A stretch of 26,460 nt of DNA. Source: a virus. The notes under the pieces are model-generated. The model saw only the letters and a program-made list of their open reading frames with translations. It searched no databases and was not told where the DNA came from. Of this stretch, positions 3,018 through 23,659 are shown in pieces; position 1 is the first letter of the stretch; the number at the start of each line of letters is the position of its first letter. Location: the IMG/VR virus record IMGVR_UViG_3300025083_000196, positions 1 to 26,460 of that record, one strand, 5' to 3'. A program made the position numbers and the translations under genes.

Positions 3018-5606
3018 TTATCTTTTGAACCTTCGAGTGGCAGGATTGTACTGCAATACACCACCATCATAATGATTGTATATGGTATCTGCCAGTTCAA
3101 CGTCAATGTCTGACATCAGATGCCATGCAAGGCCGGTCGGTTTGATGGCAATAGGTTCACCGTCTGCATTGAACTCGACCTGCATTGTCATGTCACCATC
3201 TGAAAATGTCAGTGTCAATGTATCCAGTATTCTGTCGTCACGTCGTGCAGGTGCACAATACCATCGACTGCGTTTGCCTTTGTGTCGACACTGTTTACCT
3301 TCATTCAACATTGTGACACCCATTTGTTTAAGACATCCACTGTACCACCCTAGATACTTCGGTTTGATTGCCTTCGGTCGTCGAATGGTATCACCATTCG
3401 AGGTATCCACCTCCTCAGTGTATATCTCCTGTATCATCTCTGATAAGGTGAACACTCGTAAAGGATTGTCATCCAACCATTCATCAACCATTGTTTCATG
3501 TACATCTATCTGTTCGAACTTTGTATTGACGTGATTTGACTGTTGTTGTTCATCGACAGTTAACCACCATTCTTCACGGGCCTGGTATGCCTGCACTGCC
3601 TCTGCCCATATTTGGTCACGTACTGCAGATAGTTCATCAACATCATACGACCGTTCACCTTCGACACCGTTGCATTCTATAATCCAAAACCGTCGACTTC
3701 CTGTGGAGTCCTTAAGTATCTCATCTTCATTGACAGAACCTGTGACCACACTGTTACGAGGCATGACTATCTCTTTACGTCCATATTTTGGTCTGTACTG
3801 GTCGACTTGTGTTGTTAAGAACTTTTTGATGTCGGATACTTCTGCACGGTTCATACCTGACAGTTCTGCCCATTCATGTATCCATGCCAGTCGTAGTTTT
3901 GTCAGACCGTCGACAGACCGTACATCAATGGATGCATCACTGAAAAATGACTGGCCTGTTTGAAGGCAGTTGCCTGCAATGGTTTGAAAGAATGTACTTT
4001 TACCTGCACCCTGGAGACCTTTTAAAATCAACATGGTATCGACTTTACAACCCCAGTCATATGCACGTGCCACTGCAGAGATTGCCCATTTGCGTGTGTA
4101 GGTTCTGACCATCGGTGTATCGTCTGCATTCAAATACTTTATCAACAGCTGGTCGAGTCTGTTCTGACCATCCCACTTCAGGGTGTCCAAATACTCAACC
4201 AGAGTATCACGTTGATTTTGATGGCAATACTGGTCAACTGCATCTATGCAGTTCATTTTGCCCAGTCGACGACCTACAAAATACCGTCTTCTCAATGCAC
4301 TCTGTATCAATGTGTAATGATAGTCACAAAATCTGTCACCATTGAACCATGTGTACCCTGTTCTTTTATCCATCCACAGGTCGATGTTGAGTTGTCCTAT
4401 CATGATAACAAGATTGTCAGGTGTATCCAGGGGTCGCCATGTACCACCTCTATTTGAATATGAGACCTCGACACTATTGTCTGAAATCACACAGTCATGA
4501 TGTGTTCTGTTACGACCTGAAGTACATCTGTACCGTGCAGTACTTGTCAAGGCATCGACCCGTCTATTGATGAACGCACCACCGACAGAACGACCACCCT
4601 CTGCAATACATTGTATGTTGCCTGATGCATTCTTTTGCAGTGTATCCCAGTTTTCTATGTACCAGATGAACGGTCGTGGTGTACCTGTGGCATCTGTTAT
4701 CATGTACTCACCTGTCACAACTGTACGTCGATACCGATCGGTATCTTGTGGTGTGTCTTGTGGTGTATCTTGTGGTGTTTGCTCCTGTTCGGTGTCTTGT
4801 ACGGTTGTTGTACGTTGAACCGGTGCACCTGTGTTGATGGCATACCCTGCATCAATCACTGCATCTGCAGACAGTGCATACCCATCATTGCAAATAGTAA
4901 ACTGTGTACCTTCTCTGTCGACTCTATATGATGGTTTGAACCAAAATCTAGACGGGTCTTTTGTGGCCTCATCGACATGGGGAAAAATGGACTCCAGTGC
5001 ATACCATACACCACGACGGTCTTGTGTGATATAGTCAGCTGCCTGTACTGGTTTGTCAAATGGTACAATCACCCTGAAGGCACACAGACCATTCTTTGCA
5101 GGTGACTTGTGACTGAATGAACTGTATGCAATATGGCAAAATGGTTTGAAGGCATCCAGTGTTGCATCCATCACCTCGTCAGTACATCCATCAAAATCAA
5201 ATACCATTGCATGAACGACATCGACTTTTGATTTTGCACGGTTGCCTGTCATGTCTGACCATGTGACGGGTGCAAATATGCCGGCCTCCAGTTTACCGTG
5301 TTCTGTCACCTTGCCATTTTTGCCTGTATCCTCTGATAGGTTGTCGATACACATCATTGATTGTGCAATGCCATCCAGGACAACAGAACGTACCTGTGCA
5401 TTTTTCAAGTTGTTTGTTTTGAACCATCCACCTGATGGTGCAGGGTGCACCGAACATGATATGGTGCATTCTTTTGTGGTTATTTGGGTGCTTGATGCCC
5501 AGTTTTGTGGTATATTGTATTTATTCATGGGGGTGGTTTCCTGTGATTTGATTGGAAGTTTATTGTTTTGCCTGTCATCCTCTGAAGGGGTGGCAGGCTT
5601 TTCCAT
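3018..5606 (-). CDS. Primase-helicase with VirE-like SF3/AAA ATPase domain
   Basis: This 862-residue protein is the largest early product. Its N-terminal third looks like an archaeo-eukaryotic primase core: VFDFDG (136-140), FRVIVPF (R168) and DPSRFWFKPS (217-226). A low-complexity linker with PQDT repeats follows (278-290). Residues 333-372 include Cys and His (C333, C361, H369, H370, C372), possibly a metal-binding segment. From about 470 it follows the virulence-associated E family: LKWDG, Walker A GLQGAGKST (530-538), WIHEWAEL as Walker B (575-582), and GSRRFW with the probable arginine finger (636-641). It should prime and unwind phage DNA. The start at 5606 lacks a Shine-Dalgarno site; an internal ATG at 5528 is no better. 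The candidate origin lies directly upstream. Confidence 0.87.
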   Translation of the reverse strand: MEKPATPSEDDRQNNKLPIKSQETTPMNKYNIPQNWASSTQITTKECTISCSVHPAPSGGWFKTNNLKNAQVRSVVLDGIAQSMMCIDNLSEDTGKNGKVTEHGKLEAGIFAPVTWSDMTGNRAKSKVDVVHAMVFDFDGCTDEVMDATLDAFKPFCHIAYSSFSHKSPAKNGLCAFRVIVPFDKPVQAADYITQDRRGVWYALESIFPHVDEATKDPSRFWFKPSYRVDREGTQFTICNDGYALSADAVIDAGYAINTGAPVQRTTTVQDTEQEQTPQDTPQDTPQDTDRYRRTVVTGEYMITDATGTPRPFIWYIENWDTLQKNASGNIQCIAEGGRSVGGAFINRRVDALTSTARYRCTSGRNRTHHDCVISDNSVEVSYSNRGGTWRPLDTPDNLVIMIGQLNIDLWMDKRTGYTWFNGDRFCDYHYTLIQSALRRRYFVGRRLGKMNCIDAVDQYCHQNQRDTLVEYLDTLKWDGQNRLDQLLIKYLNADDTPMVRTYTRKWAISAVARAYDWGCKVDTMLILKGLQGAGKSTFFQTIAGNCLQTGQSFFSDASIDVRSVDGLTKLRLAWIHEWAELSGMNRAEVSDIKKFLTTQVDQYRPKYGRKEIVMPRNSVVTGSVNEDEILKDSTGSRRFWIIECNGVEGERSYDVDELSAVRDQIWAEAVQAYQAREEWWLTVDEQQQSNHVNTKFEQIDVHETMVDEWLDDNPLRVFTLSEMIQEIYTEEVDTSNGDTIRRPKAIKPKYLGWYSGCLKQMGVTMLNEGKQCRHKGKRSRWYCAPARRDDRILDTLTLTFSDGDMTMQVEFNADGEPIAIKPTGLAWHLMSDIDVELADTIYNHYDGGVLQYNPATRRFKR
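4741..4790. repeat. 12-bp tandem repeat encoding PQDT linker
   Basis: Three to four copies of a TCTTGTGGTG-containing 12-bp unit lie inside the primase-helicase gene and encode PQDTPQDTPQDT on the minus strand. It is in frame and joins the primase-like and later domains, so it reads as a flexible linker that can change length by slippage. Confidence 0.7.
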
Positions 5607-5645
5607 TATAACGTCATTATTTATTTATGTATTAAAAATAAATAC

Positions 5646-5897
5646 TGTCACACACCTTTTTTTGAGTACGTGACACCACTGTCACGGTGTGACACCTATT
5701 GTCAACGGGGTGACACCCTCTGTGACACCTGTTTTGTATCGGTACTGTCGTCATAGTAGCATACCTGTCACCCTGTCACCCTCTATTGAATGAAAAAAGA
5801 TTATTTGTAATTCAGTGCCAAATAGGTACAAGGGTGGGTATTTGGCACGGGTATACAGAATATGTTGCAAACCATACGACAGGGTGACACCGTGACA
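5646..5897. promoter_or_regulatory. GTGACA/TGTCAC motif cluster upstream of primase-helicase
   Basis: About ten GTGACA motifs, in both orientations, fall within 250 non-coding bases: 5646, 5670, 5680, 5689, 5710, 5722, 5766, 5774, 5884 and 5892. Many extend to GGTGACACC or GTGACACC. The cluster is interrupted by an AT-rich stretch (about 5787-5820). It lies between the primase-helicase start and the DnaA-box array. Iterons for a replication protein, or operators for an HTH repressor, are the natural readings. Confidence 0.6.
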
Positions 5898-5920
5898 GGC
5901 CTTGCAGACAAACCGTCAAC

Positions 5921-6032
5921 ACTTATCAACACCTGTGGATAACTTTGTGGATAACTTATCAACACCTGTGGATAACTTTGTGGATAACTTATCAACACCT
6001 GTGGATAACTTTGTGGATAACTTTGTGGATAA
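5921..6032. other. Candidate replication origin: DnaA-box array in 33-bp tandem repeats
   Basis: Three exact 33-bp units (5921-5953, 5954-5986, 5987-6019) and a partial fourth (6020-6031) are present. Each unit has TTATCAACA on the plus strand and two copies of TGTGGATAA, the complement of the DnaA box TTATCCACA. Seven perfect boxes result: 5934, 5946, 5967, 5979, 6000, 6012 and 6024. Paired boxes are 12 bp apart and units 33 bp apart, close to three helical turns, so boxes lie on a similar face of the helix. An AT-rich stretch and the primase-helicase gene are beside it. It ends at the stop of the 115-residue gene. Recruitment of host DnaA is the obvious inference. Confidence 0.82.
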
Positions 6033-6034
6033 CT

Positions 6035-6382
6035 TTACACCCAGGTGAAATCATCACTATCATCATCATCCTGCATCACTGTCTGCATCTCCATATGGGT
6101 CAATGTCTTGAGTACACAGTGGATAACCTTCAATGTCTGTGGATGTTCGTGATGATCGTCAAAATCTACACCGTCAGGTGTAAAATGTACATACATTACA
6201 CCATCATCACCATCTAAGACATAGCCCATACCATATTGATGCACGTATTCAAGTCCTAGAGTCGACTGTATACTGTGTTCAAAATGGTTTGCAGATGCAA
6301 CTGGGTCAATGGTGTGTTCTGTTTGAATTCCTCTTAACATCATCCGTACCAGTTCTGATATGCTTTGTTGTTCAATACTCAT
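6035..6382 (-). CDS. Hypothetical acidic protein
   Basis: The 115-residue protein is acidic, ending in a QDDDDSDDFTWV tail, with many His and Met. I recognise no domain. The N-terminal part (SIEQQSISELVRMMLRGI) is probably helical and the centre (GMGYVLDGDDGVMYVHFTP) probably beta. It stands alone between an upstream terminator (6467-6491) and the DnaA-box array, and its stop codon touches the last repeat. No Shine-Dalgarno site is visible ahead of the ATG at 6382. Position suggests a replication or control function, but nothing in the sequence shows it. Confidence 0.6.
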   Translation of the reverse strand: MSIEQQSISELVRMMLRGIQTEHTIDPVASANHFEHSIQSTLGLEYVHQYGMGYVLDGDDGVMYVHFTPDGVDFDDHHEHPQTLKVIHCVLKTLTHMEMQTVMQDDDDSDDFTWV

Positions 6383-6466
6383 GTCGACAGTCTAACACAA
6401 AACAGTTCAATATAAATGTCAGAACTCGACTTGTACTTGATGTAGCAGCTGCAGAATAAACAAAAA

Positions 6467-6491
6467 GGCACTAGTCGATGTAACTAGTGCC
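6467..6491 (-). terminator. Intrinsic terminator after the HTH operon
   Basis: Arms GGCACTAGT and ACTAGTGCC enclose a 7-base loop, and on the minus strand the stem runs straight into TTTTTGTTTAT. It lies 25 bp beyond the stop of the 157-residue gene and insulates that operon from the 115-residue gene and the origin region. Confidence 0.85.
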
Positions 6492-6515
6492 CTTCAGAGG
6501 TAAAAGGTATTTGTT

Positions 6516-6989
6516 TTACTTTTGCAGATTTGACATCATACCCATCATCGACTCGGTTGCACAATCTTCATGGGTGGCCCAGTATTTAGCCAGTGCAATC
6601 CAGTTTTCGACAGTCGGTTGCCTGGCATCCTTGCACCACTGATGCAATGTCATTCGACTTATGTTGATTGATGATGCCAGTGCAGAACTTTTGATATTGT
6701 GTTTGTCCATCATTGCCTCTAACCAGATACCCAGTGTGATGGTGTTCGTTAGATACTCGTATTTGTTTTCAACCCATGTCTCTGCCTGTCGTCTACACAT
6801 GCAGTCTGATGAATATATACGACCTCGATGTGATACCTGACCTCTCCATATAAAATCACAGTCCAGGGGATGATAAAAGACAGATATAAAACCTGCATCA
6901 CCCATGTCGATGGTTTGTGTTGTTCTTTTACGTAGTGCAGCTCTACCGAATTCTTTTGTGTAGTCACGCATTGATTTTGATGTTGTCAT
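6516..6989 (-). CDS. Two-part protein with C-terminal XRE-like HTH
   Basis: The 157-residue protein has two parts. Residues about 28-80 look beta-rich and contain IWRGQVSHRGRIYSSDCMC followed by AETWVENK, a W-x-G-x-V ... A-x-x-W arrangement reminiscent of small beta-sheet DNA-binding domains such as AP2 or integrase arm domains; this is only a resemblance. Residues about 86-140 form an HTH: NIKSSALASSINISRMTLHQ then WCKDARQPTVENW, close to XRE proteins. The start overlaps the upstream stop (TAATG at 6987-6991). It is the last gene before the terminator. A regulator with two DNA contacts is plausible. Confidence 0.68.
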   Translation of the reverse strand: MTTSKSMRDYTKEFGRAALRKRTTQTIDMGDAGFISVFYHPLDCDFIWRGQVSHRGRIYSSDCMCRRQAETWVENKYEYLTNTITLGIWLEAMMDKHNIKSSALASSINISRMTLHQWCKDARQPTVENWIALAKYWATHEDCATESMMGMMSNLQK

Positions 6990-7576: not shown

Positions 7577-7762
7577 TTACACCCCTGCAATGTGACACAG
7601 TGCCATGAATACAAAACCTATTGCAGAGAATGCACCTGTGACAAGTGCAGTGCCGATGATGTGTTGTTTTACTTTTTCCATTTGTTTATCCATTTGATTT
7701 GATTGAATGCAACACTGAATGTATTGCAGTGTCAACAGTGTACACAGTTCGATACAAAACAT
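7577..7762 (-). CDS. Small membrane protein, start uncertain
   Basis: The frame holds up to 61 codons. Its C-terminal 28 residues (HIIGTALVTGAFSAIGFVFM and on to HIAGV) form one clear transmembrane helix after a basic stretch (DKQMEKVKQ). The ATG at 7762 lies about 25 bases from a TATAAA sequence; ATGs at 7693 (38 residues) and 7681 are alternatives. None has a Shine-Dalgarno site. The stop (7577-7579) lies inside the ribosome binding region of the next gene. It is the promoter-proximal gene of the operon. The function is unknown; membrane location is well supported. Confidence 0.5.
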   Translation of the reverse strand: MFCIELCTLLTLQYIQCCIQSNQMDKQMEKVKQHIIGTALVTGAFSAIGFVFMALCHIAGV

Positions 7763-7789
7763 GTATACATTTTTATTTTATTTTTATAG

Positions 7790-7843
7790 TGGTCAGTATT
7801 TTGTACAGTATCACCAAATACTGGTCAGTATTCTGTACAGTAT
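7790..7843. promoter_or_regulatory. Divergent control region with repeated CAGTAT motif
   Basis: Two 22-bp direct repeats (7790-7811 and 7822-7843) differ at one position and are 32 bp apart. Each has CAGTAT twice at 12-bp spacing (7794, 7806, 7826, 7838); one inverted copy (ATACTG) is at 7818. TATATT at 7841 could be the -10 of the plus-strand exonuclease gene, and TATAAA near 7788, on the minus strand, could serve the HTH operon. Operator sites for one of the HTH proteins encoded next door are likely. Confidence 0.65.
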
Positions 7844-7871
7844 ATTCAGACACTCCATACAGAGATGCATC

Positions 7872-8405
7872 ATGAACTTGAACGACCCACGCACAATACA
7901 TTTTGTCGACCTTGAAACGACACACCTGGATGAATATAAAGGTGAAATCATCGAGATATGCATACTGACATCACATGACTGGGGTAAAACCATTCATGAC
8001 ATGATACATACGAAGGTCAAACCAGTGCATATCAATACTGCCCATCCGACTTCACTGGTTGTCAATGGATACAATGATGCAGACTGGTCTGATGCACCAC
8101 TGTGGACTGACATAGTTGCAGAGGTATCACAACGACTGTCGACAGGTATCATCTGTGCACACAATGCCATATTTGAACAAAAATGGTTGTCGTATCACTG
8201 TCACAACGTCCTGACATATCGTTTTATGTGTACACAGACACTTGCATACACATTTTTGCCTTTACGTTCTGCATCTATGTCTGTCATTCGACAGTATTTT
8301 GACTGGTCAGAGGATGATGCACACACTGCATATGTCGATGCCTATGATTGTTATAGATTTTTTGTCATTTGTATGACGGACGTTTTGCCTTCTGTGCCTG
8401 ACTGA
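7872..8405 (+). CDS. DEDDh 3'-5' exonuclease (DnaQ-like)
   Basis: The 177-residue protein has the three exonuclease motifs: FVDLETTHLD (D13, E15), AHNAIFEQKWL (N98, with E102 where Asp is usual) and HTAYVDAYDCYRF (H151, D156). The spacing fits the DEDDh class of DnaQ, RNase T and ExoX. The frame is open further upstream, but the ATG at 7872 is the only one just ahead of the first motif; AGAG precedes it weakly. It is one of only two plus-strand genes here and reads out of the CAGTAT region. Roles could be 3'-end trimming in repair, RNA turnover or nucleotide recycling. The E102 substitution is conservative and probably tolerated. Confidence 0.85.
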   Translation: MNLNDPRTIHFVDLETTHLDEYKGEIIEICILTSHDWGKTIHDMIHTKVKPVHINTAHPTSLVVNGYNDADWSDAPLWTDIVAEVSQRLSTGIICAHNAIFEQKWLSYHCHNVLTYRFMCTQTLAYTFLPLRSASMSVIRQYFDWSEDDAHTAYVDAYDCYRFFVICMTDVLPSVPD

Positions 8406-22294: not shown

Positions 22295-23659
22295 TTAGAT
22301 ACTGACTGCGATGTCGATACCTGTCAAACTTTGTACAGATTTTACAGTGACCTGTGTTGTACTTGTATATACAATCTCAAGGTCGATGTGATTGCCTGAA
22401 CCATCCATTGCAGATACGTGTACAAGTCGTTCACCTAGACTATGGGTCAACACTAGACCTGTATTTGCAGTCAATGACTGATTTGCAAAACCTTTGCGCA
22501 AACTAGACAACATCAATGCAATGTCACCTGATGACTGATTGAAAGTCAACAAGTTACCTGCAGCTGGGTCGGCTTGTACTGCACCACGTGCACGTGCATC
22601 TGTGAAGTAAAGGTTAGAACCTTCGGCAATGTCATCGGTATCTGCATTCAATGCAATCTGACCTGTACCACTGTTGTATGCAAGTCCATCAGTATCAACA
22701 CTGATTGCACCACGGGCGCGTGCATCGGTGAAGTAAAGGTTAGTACCTTCAGCAACATCATCAGTATCTGCATTCAATGCAATCTGTCCAGTCAGAGCGT
22801 TGTATGCAAGTCCATCAGTATCAACAGAGATTGCACCACGGGCGCGTGCATCGGTGAAGTAAAGGTTAGTACCTTCAGTCACATCATCGGTATCTGCATT
22901 GATAGAGTATACACCGTTTGAGTAAGACAACCCAGTACCGGCACTTAACTGTGAAAACACATCTGACAGTTCAACACTCAATACACCTGTACTGTTGTTG
23001 TATTGCAACAGTTGTACATCAGGCCCTGCAACAGAGGCAACAGATACTGCACCACGTGAACGTGCATCTGTATAAAATAGGTTGTTAGAACCTTCTGTGA
23101 TTTGATCAGACGTTGCATTTAGGCTGAACTGTCCACCTGAATATGCAAGCCCAGTACCGGCACTAAAAAATCCCTGGATCTCTGACTGGTCTGCAGTGAA
23201 TACACCTGTCGATGCATTGTAGTCAATCCCTGCAGAGGCTGAAAACTTTGCACGGATTTGTGCATCAGATAAACCACTGTTGACCAAATTCCAATCTGCA
23301 GCTGTACCAGCTGTACCACCATTATGAATATATGACTCAATAGGTGACGGTGTAGTTAAAAAGACAATATCGCCTTCTTGAAAGTTCGACCCTGTGTACA
23401 CATTTGAAATAAAATCTGCAAGGTCGGTTGCAGTTGTATTCACTGTTACACTTGTGATTGTCAATGGGTCAATCTTAAGTTTGTTAACTCCACCATCTGC
23501 AACTACTGATGCATAGTTTGCAGAGTCAGGATGAATACCATTGATCACATTTGAATGTAAATATCCACGGGTGACAACGTGATTGTCATTTGAGATTGTA
23601 CCATTTTGTTTGATGACGCCTTCGGCAATCAGTTCAGGGGCTAGAAATCTTTGAGCCAT
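22295..23659 (-). CDS. Repeat-rich fibre protein
   Basis: The 454-residue protein has an N-terminal head (MAQRFLAPELIAEGVIKQNG), a shaft and a C-terminal knob (TGLVLTHSLGERLVHVSAMD). The shaft has four copies of (E)G(S/T)NxxFTDARxRGA about 42-50 residues apart, a repeat common in phage head and tail fibres, where it builds triple-stranded beta shafts. The C-terminal domain resembles the 72-residue protein just upstream (both have THxLG then a strand, then I and V strands). AGAGGTATAAA precedes the start. It lies between scaffold and capsid genes, so a head fibre is as likely as a tail fibre. Host attachment is inferred. Confidence 0.72.
   Translation of the reverse strand: MAQRFLAPELIAEGVIKQNGTISNDNHVVTRGYLHSNVINGIHPDSANYASVVADGGVNKLKIDPLTITSVTVNTTATDLADFISNVYTGSNFQEGDIVFLTTPSPIESYIHNGGTAGTAADWNLVNSGLSDAQIRAKFSASAGIDYNASTGVFTADQSEIQGFFSAGTGLAYSGGQFSLNATSDQITEGSNNLFYTDARSRGAVSVASVAGPDVQLLQYNNSTGVLSVELSDVFSQLSAGTGLSYSNGVYSINADTDDVTEGTNLYFTDARARGAISVDTDGLAYNALTGQIALNADTDDVAEGTNLYFTDARARGAISVDTDGLAYNSGTGQIALNADTDDIAEGSNLYFTDARARGAVQADPAAGNLLTFNQSSGDIALMLSSLRKGFANQSLTANTGLVLTHSLGERLVHVSAMDGSGNHIDLEIVYTSTTQVTVKSVQSLTGIDIAVSI
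22600..22880. repeat. 126-bp direct duplication in fibre shaft
   Basis: Two blocks near 22690-22765 and 22816-22891 are almost identical at a 126-bp offset (for example GGGCGCG at 22714 and 22840), with a third, more diverged, copy near 22580-22640. One unit is 42 codons and codes one shaft repeat. Near-identity at DNA level marks a recent duplication. Confidence 0.75.

Follow-up and report, generated by a model that had tools for sequence, protein, structure and literature searches.

A variable array of predicted DnaA boxes beside a candidate Rep/iteron origin of a VapE-encoding phage

Why would a phage that encodes its own primase-helicase carry, a short distance upstream of that gene, a dense array of predicted sites for the replication initiator of its host? 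The question is raised by a 26,460-base IMG/VR virus fragment (the window, meaning the whole stretch of DNA analyzed here) that carries tailed-phage markers, namely portal, major head, tape-measure, endolysin, RusA, and partial terminase genes. The reading that we favor, giving it an even chance, is an origin driven by Rep and iterons and accompanied by an accessory array, which would bind host DnaA and help initiation. Below we set out the composition of the locus, the fate of the array among relatives, and the alternatives.

The box array and the adjoining core

As to the array itself, the seven perfect boxes and the 33-bp tandem repeat that a sequence-only reading of this DNA had described, with two minus-strand boxes and one plus-strand box per unit, are indeed in place (Table 1), the repeat being recovered by Tandem Repeats Finder as a 33-bp period of 3.1 copies with a 100% match (positions 5921–6023). 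The seven perfect TTATCCACA boxes are packed into 99 bp, and with the three TTATCAACA boxes the array totals ten predicted boxes. Across 200 dinucleotide shuffles, the mean expectation was 0.46 perfect TTATCCACA per window (largest 3), with at most 1 perfect box per 110 bp, and several matches to TTWTNCACA are found in the array, far above chance. Two further statements of the sequence-only reading fared less well. Near-constant helical phase has to be abandoned, as each 12-bp or 33-bp step entails a drift of ~51 degrees, and the phase of the seven boxes runs from 0 to 206 degrees across the array (at 10.5 bp per turn). Unusual density holds in comparison to oriC, but the array is not exceptional among phages, with 20 listed stretches having seven or more boxes per 250 bp. 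The array was also considered as a chromosomal oriC, and it does not fit one: phage genes surround it, the boxes of this and the related arrays are almost only TTATCCACA, TTATGCACA, or TTATCAACA, and neither a dnaA/dnaN context nor a mix of strong and weak boxes is present.

Table 1. Coordinates of features at the candidate origin and in its surroundings (window positions)
Feature	Position	Strand	Remarks
VapE-type primase-helicase P0001	3018..5606	-	PF05272, E 4e-73
Second iteron group	5646..5729		six GTGACA/TGTCAC units, spacing kept in relatives
Iteron arm 2 (CCTGTCACCCTGTCACCCT)	5764..5782		inverted relative to arm 1
T-rich stretch AATCTTTTTT			helicase-gene side of inverted repeat
Inverted repeat GTGCCAAATA...TATTTGGCAC	5815..5848		aligned in six phages, located in nine
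Iteron arm 1 (AGGGTGACACCGTGACAGG)	5881..5899		~22 bp from array
Candidate DnaA-box array	5923..6032		three exact 33-bp units (5921-5953, 5954-5986, 5987-6019) plus extra 12-mer
TTATCAACA boxes, opposite strand	5923..5997	+	starts 5923, 5956, 5989
Perfect TTATCCACA pair	5934-5942, 5946-5954	-	step 12 bp, gap 3 bp
Perfect TTATCCACA pair	5967-5975, 5979-5987	-
Perfect TTATCCACA trio	6000-6008, 6012-6020, 6024-6032	-
P0003, 115-aa acidic protein	6035..6382	-	stop codon ends 2 nt from array
RNase_T / DnaQ-like exonuclease	7719..8405	+	same region as array

The boxes are also highly uniform beyond the window. Scoring of nine array regions for TTATNCACA or TTATCAACA gave 85 boxes (59 TTATCCACA, 23 TTATCAACA, and 3 TTATGCACA), and only one further site in the same regions has a single mismatch to TTATCCACA. 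The flanking bases vary while the 9-mers stay intact, and where the opposite-strand boxes differ, one box type takes the place of another: the relative G007 has TTATGCACA at the corresponding sites, and one such site is TTATCCACA in L038 and TTATCAACA in L042. As judged from these regions, the 9-mer box sequence is maintained by selection, with the flanks free to change.

Opposed box pairs, 1–2 bp apart, recur in the array, so a DARS- or datA-like site may be envisaged, at which such pairs would alter the nucleotide state of DnaA, raising or lowering ATP-DnaA in infection. We consider this very improbable, as the array contains head-to-tail runs of strong boxes, which to our knowledge are no feature of DARS. 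What speaks for a site of this kind is that opposed boxes I and II form the core of DARS (PMC8682772) and that the ColE1 origin contains a DARS (PMC5835720).

The gene downstream of the array encodes a VapE-type protein with a solved VapE-like relative (7pds). Its relatives start at an ATG corresponding to position 5528 (residue 27), and the open reading frame is therefore probably over-extended by 26 codons, the predicted protein being of 836 rather than 862 amino acids. A terminator-like hairpin is found at 5570–5598, within the putative over-extension (5528–5606). The placement of the array upstream of the primase-helicase is confirmed, the sites being ~317 bp from the start of the open reading frame (ATG 5606) and ~395 bp from the conserved start (5528). 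A GC-skew minimum had been proposed as a check; it falls not at the array but at 23.8 kb, which says little for a fragment such as the window, in which nearly all genes share one strand. Elsewhere in the window, an open reading frame for a tail protein contains a 126-bp tandem repeat of 2.5 copies (22580–22900). A search of 84,980 bacterial and archaeal species genomes returned no relatives of P0003 or of the portal protein, and no prophage relative.

Between the array and the helicase gene lie ten GTGACA/TGTCAC hexamers (5646–5897). In the clade to which the window belongs, these iterons, which are putative Rep sites, adjoin the rep gene, as in origins of the iteron plasmid type. In most of the nine phages, the spacing of the core varies by no more than about 1 bp: relative to the inverted repeat, the hexamers are found near -50/-41, +69/+77, +121/+133, +154/+163/+173, and +197, with a tolerance of ~1 bp for most positions (the G007 offsets being judged from the alignment), while the more distant members lack some units or have them displaced. 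With regard to a possible AT-rich unwinding element, the AT content of the core is 63%, versus a mean of 56%, with 7% of positions equal or higher; this only modest increase would, if anything, count against the accessory-origin reading.

Presence, absence, and position of the array among close relatives

The clade in question consists of nine phages (the window, G001, G002, G003, G005, G007, L036, L037, and L040), collected partly via P0003 and partly via VapE; a VapE alignment, used in a subsequent scan, brought in no closer members. All nine have in common the VapE-type primase-helicase and the core of iterons and inverted repeat. The array follows a different pattern. Five of the nine possess it (the window, G001, G002, G003, and G007, each with between 7 and 11 boxes that read TTATNCACA or TTATCAACA), G005 retains a remnant of one perfect and one near-perfect box, and L036, L037, and L040 have no array, so that conservation of the boxes in close relatives, which had been named as a test, is found in part of the clade only. 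The position of the array varies as well. In the window, G001, and G003 it is located between P0003 and the iterons, while G002 and G007 have P0003 in inverted orientation with the array beyond it, the boxes of one phage being oriented opposite to those of the other; the distance from array to iterons is 22–80 bp, or ~350 bp or more (G002, G007). The boxes of the clade do not keep the fixed position and orientation relative to the iterons that characterize RK2.

As the array is lost, moved, and inverted between close relatives, it must be placed outside the rigid core, and as it is absent in three phages, vestigial in one, and variable in five, the array alone is not "the origin," nor is it essential in this clade. 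The proposal of the sequence-only reading, an origin recruiting DnaA or a sink for it, is thus upheld as far as location in the replication module is concerned, and needs to be amended with regard to what constitutes the origin. In comparative terms, the array behaves like an enhancer, tolerant and dispensable, rather than the origin proper, and its probable use to the phage is as an add-on by which DnaA is hijacked, not as an essential origin in itself. With the core rigid and the array both tolerant and dispensable, it would be the phage initiator that drives replication, with DnaA as an optional helper, and the three phages without an array, along with the remnant in G005, show that an origin of this type can, in some phages, do without it.

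In the sequence of events that we envisage, the VapE primase-helicase would bind the TGTCAC/GTGACA iterons to either side of the inverted repeat and T-rich stretch, open the duplex at the core, and load itself, and host DnaA would fill the adjacent strong boxes, either making duplex opening more efficient or bringing in the host replisome. The phage seems to be dependent on the host replisome, as no phage DNA polymerase was found among the window proteins scanned. Apart from the lack of an array in some phages, which counts against such a role of DnaA, two further observations from the clade do so. One is the free position and orientation of the boxes, by analogy with RK2, where inverting one box is fatal. 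Another is the array of G002 and G007, which is ~350 bp from the iterons, beyond P0003.

Arrays in other phages and the link to P0003

Support for the accessory-origin reading comes from more distant phages. L081 and L127 were picked up solely through their box pattern; they encode VapE proteins of 32 and 38% identity and possess arrays of ten and eight boxes, respectively, beside iterons of their own (ACAGAT in L081, GTGGACA in L127). In L038 and L045, 11-bp iterons of the TTTCACACGT type form inverted arms ~200 bp apart, and L045 has the iterons without an array. Inverted iteron arms around a core are common to the window, L038, L045, L081, and L127. Overall, four VapE lineages have arrays in the replication module, each accompanied by an iteron set of its own, and the arrays beside unrelated iterons in L038, L081, and L127 count in favor of an accessory to the origin.

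Dense clusters of DnaA boxes are not limited to VapE phages, and appear to be a recurring, little-discussed feature of phage genomes. A pattern scan returned at least 120 viral stretches with three clustered perfect boxes, and among the matches listed, a hand count gives 48 stretches with at least five boxes per 250 bp, including those with seven or more mentioned above. Proteins encoded near these clusters match terminases, portals, methyltransferases, and VapE. The notion that these might be misfiled bacterial oriC finds no support: the neighbors include terminases, portals, and VapE, and DnaA and DnaN are absent among the 25 of 35 Pfam families listed. Two very box-rich clusters belong to unrelated phages, one with 14 boxes near a sigma-factor-like gene (L101, 12862–13093) and one with 12 boxes near an ATPase-like gene (L145, 1195–1451). 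Cultured phages with similar repeats include the T5-like slur09, the Lactococcus 949 group (AM1/AM4), and Berlinvirus (P483/A7). We found no report of DnaA arrays in VapE phages in the open-licence literature.

The occurrence of dense arrays in many unrelated phages fits the main rival to an accessory of the origin, a DnaA sink, in which accumulating phage copies, with ten strong sites each, would titrate host DnaA and block new rounds of chromosome replication. We regard this as possible, if doubtful. The dispensability of the array and its free position and orientation fit a sink, the seven perfect boxes all belong to the strongest type, with the C at position 5 that binds best, and plasmids with DnaA boxes are known to titrate DnaA and to delay initiation (PMC5835720). 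Some 20 phage genomes would match the ~200 DnaA per origin of Escherichia coli (PMC5835720), a figure that may not be that of the actual host. However, a single infecting genome brings in only about ten sites, so that an effect would come only late, and a sink could sit anywhere in the genome, yet the arrays keep to the replication module in the four VapE lineages.

The cultured phages bring up a different role, that of an element that stops injection or marks a genome end. Such a role has been proposed for the T5 DnaA boxes, which are listed among the features of the injection stop signal of that phage (PMC13250531). The T5-like slur09 has the same 12-bp TTATCCACA pair, and the Berlinvirus clusters are near a record end. 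For the window, such a role is extremely improbable, with the array inside the replication module, tied to P0003 and the iterons, and with no sign of a genome end seen at 6 kb.

We return to the array as an accessory to the origin, and to its neighbor P0003, which is encoded in all nine phages of the clade. The tail of this protein is D/E-rich, ending in W/F/Y plus V/I. The acidic C-terminal tail of the P0003 family is somewhat SSB-like (window 6035–6382, loci L035–L054), a likeness limited to a short motif. P0003 has no match in Pfam or PHROG and none in PDB below E 0.05; its AlphaFold model (pLDDT 78; two helices, four strands, one helix) has only two weak viral matches, both unnamed, and no function for P0003 follows from these searches.

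P0003 is 57–68% identical in a second lineage whose VapE is only 25–29% identical (aligned part). In this lineage, arrays are present on both sides of P0003 in six of eight phages (L038, L039, L041, L042, L043, and L054), L047 has an array upstream of P0003 only, and L045, its sister on the P0003 tree, has none. Four more distant relatives (L050–L053; VapE 32–35%) are likewise without arrays. By parsimony, no fewer than four changes are needed to explain array presence on the P0003 tree, and well-supported branches make two of these unavoidable. In each of the 11 P0003 loci that bear an array, no box is more than 250 bp away from P0003, and the rest of the 3–5 kb has none; as these loci were fetched through P0003, this linkage is partly a selection effect, though boxes elsewhere in the 3–5 kb were still detectable. 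A terminator-like hairpin with a T run occurs within a 44-bp array gap in two phages of this lineage (L038, 2409–2443; L047, 2390–2422).

The contrast between the conservation of P0003 and that of VapE, along with arrays flanking P0003 on either or both sides, raises the idea of a mobile "DnaA-capture" cassette, comprising P0003 and the array, that travels as one piece among phages whose VapE initiators differ widely, and in which P0003 would bind DnaA or a DnaA-DNA complex. We consider this unlikely; if true, phages could toggle their dependence on host DnaA by array gain or loss. A transcriptional switch, in which array-bound DnaA would control P0003 or adjacent replication genes, or would act as a roadblock or terminator aid, is quite unlikely too. 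The upstream array of L038, L041, and L047 overlaps with the stretch immediately preceding the P0003 start, and the hairpins of L038 and L047 lie inside the array, as such a switch would have it. In the window and its closest relatives, however, the array adjoins the 3' end of P0003, a promoter scan returned no minus-strand promoter-like site in 5500–6550, and the arrangement differs among lineages.

Should the array indeed be an accessory to the origin, phages would add and drop a docking array for the host initiator beside a self-sufficient origin. The reasons why certain phages engage DnaA, whether for help or sabotage, would become testable, and close relatives with and without the array provide a natural comparison set.

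Comparison with known systems

Several known systems resemble this locus in part. Sites for DnaA titration are one, with datA and the other E. coli loci of this kind resembling the window array in being box clusters able, in principle, to titrate DnaA. The phage array consists of strong boxes; in datA, by contrast, consensus boxes number two and are accompanied by misfit boxes and an IHF site (PMC5835720). Another is presented by the cultured phages slur09, AM1/AM4, and Berlinvirus, in which, as in the window, TTATCCACA boxes are repeated in non-coding DNA, with the 12-bp step common to the window, slur09, and AM1/AM4. These phages differ in having three to five boxes per ~110 bp and different surroundings, neither a VapE gene nor P0003 being annotated in the stretches shown.

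The VapE- and D5-type Rep origins of SaPI and SCC elements share with the phage a self-loading helicase of the same broad kind. SaPI origins carry iterons in inverted arms around a core, and we know of no DnaA-box array in them. The short iterons of SaPI and SCC are in the neighboring intergenic region (PMC7581432); unlike in SaPI, the iterons of the window clade are upstream of the rep gene, not directly downstream.

The plasmid origins of RK2, P1, R1, and pSC101, like that proposed for the phage, combine iterons linked to a Rep gene with strong DnaA boxes nearby. Plasmid P1 has two DnaA-box arrays, DnaA raises replication efficiency in plasmid R1 while not being required, and in RK2 box position and orientation are essential, with one inverted box abolishing replication (PMC4980987). 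The phage differs from these plasmids in that its initiator is a VapE-type primase-helicase, in that the boxes number up to 11, and in that the array moves, flips, and vanishes.
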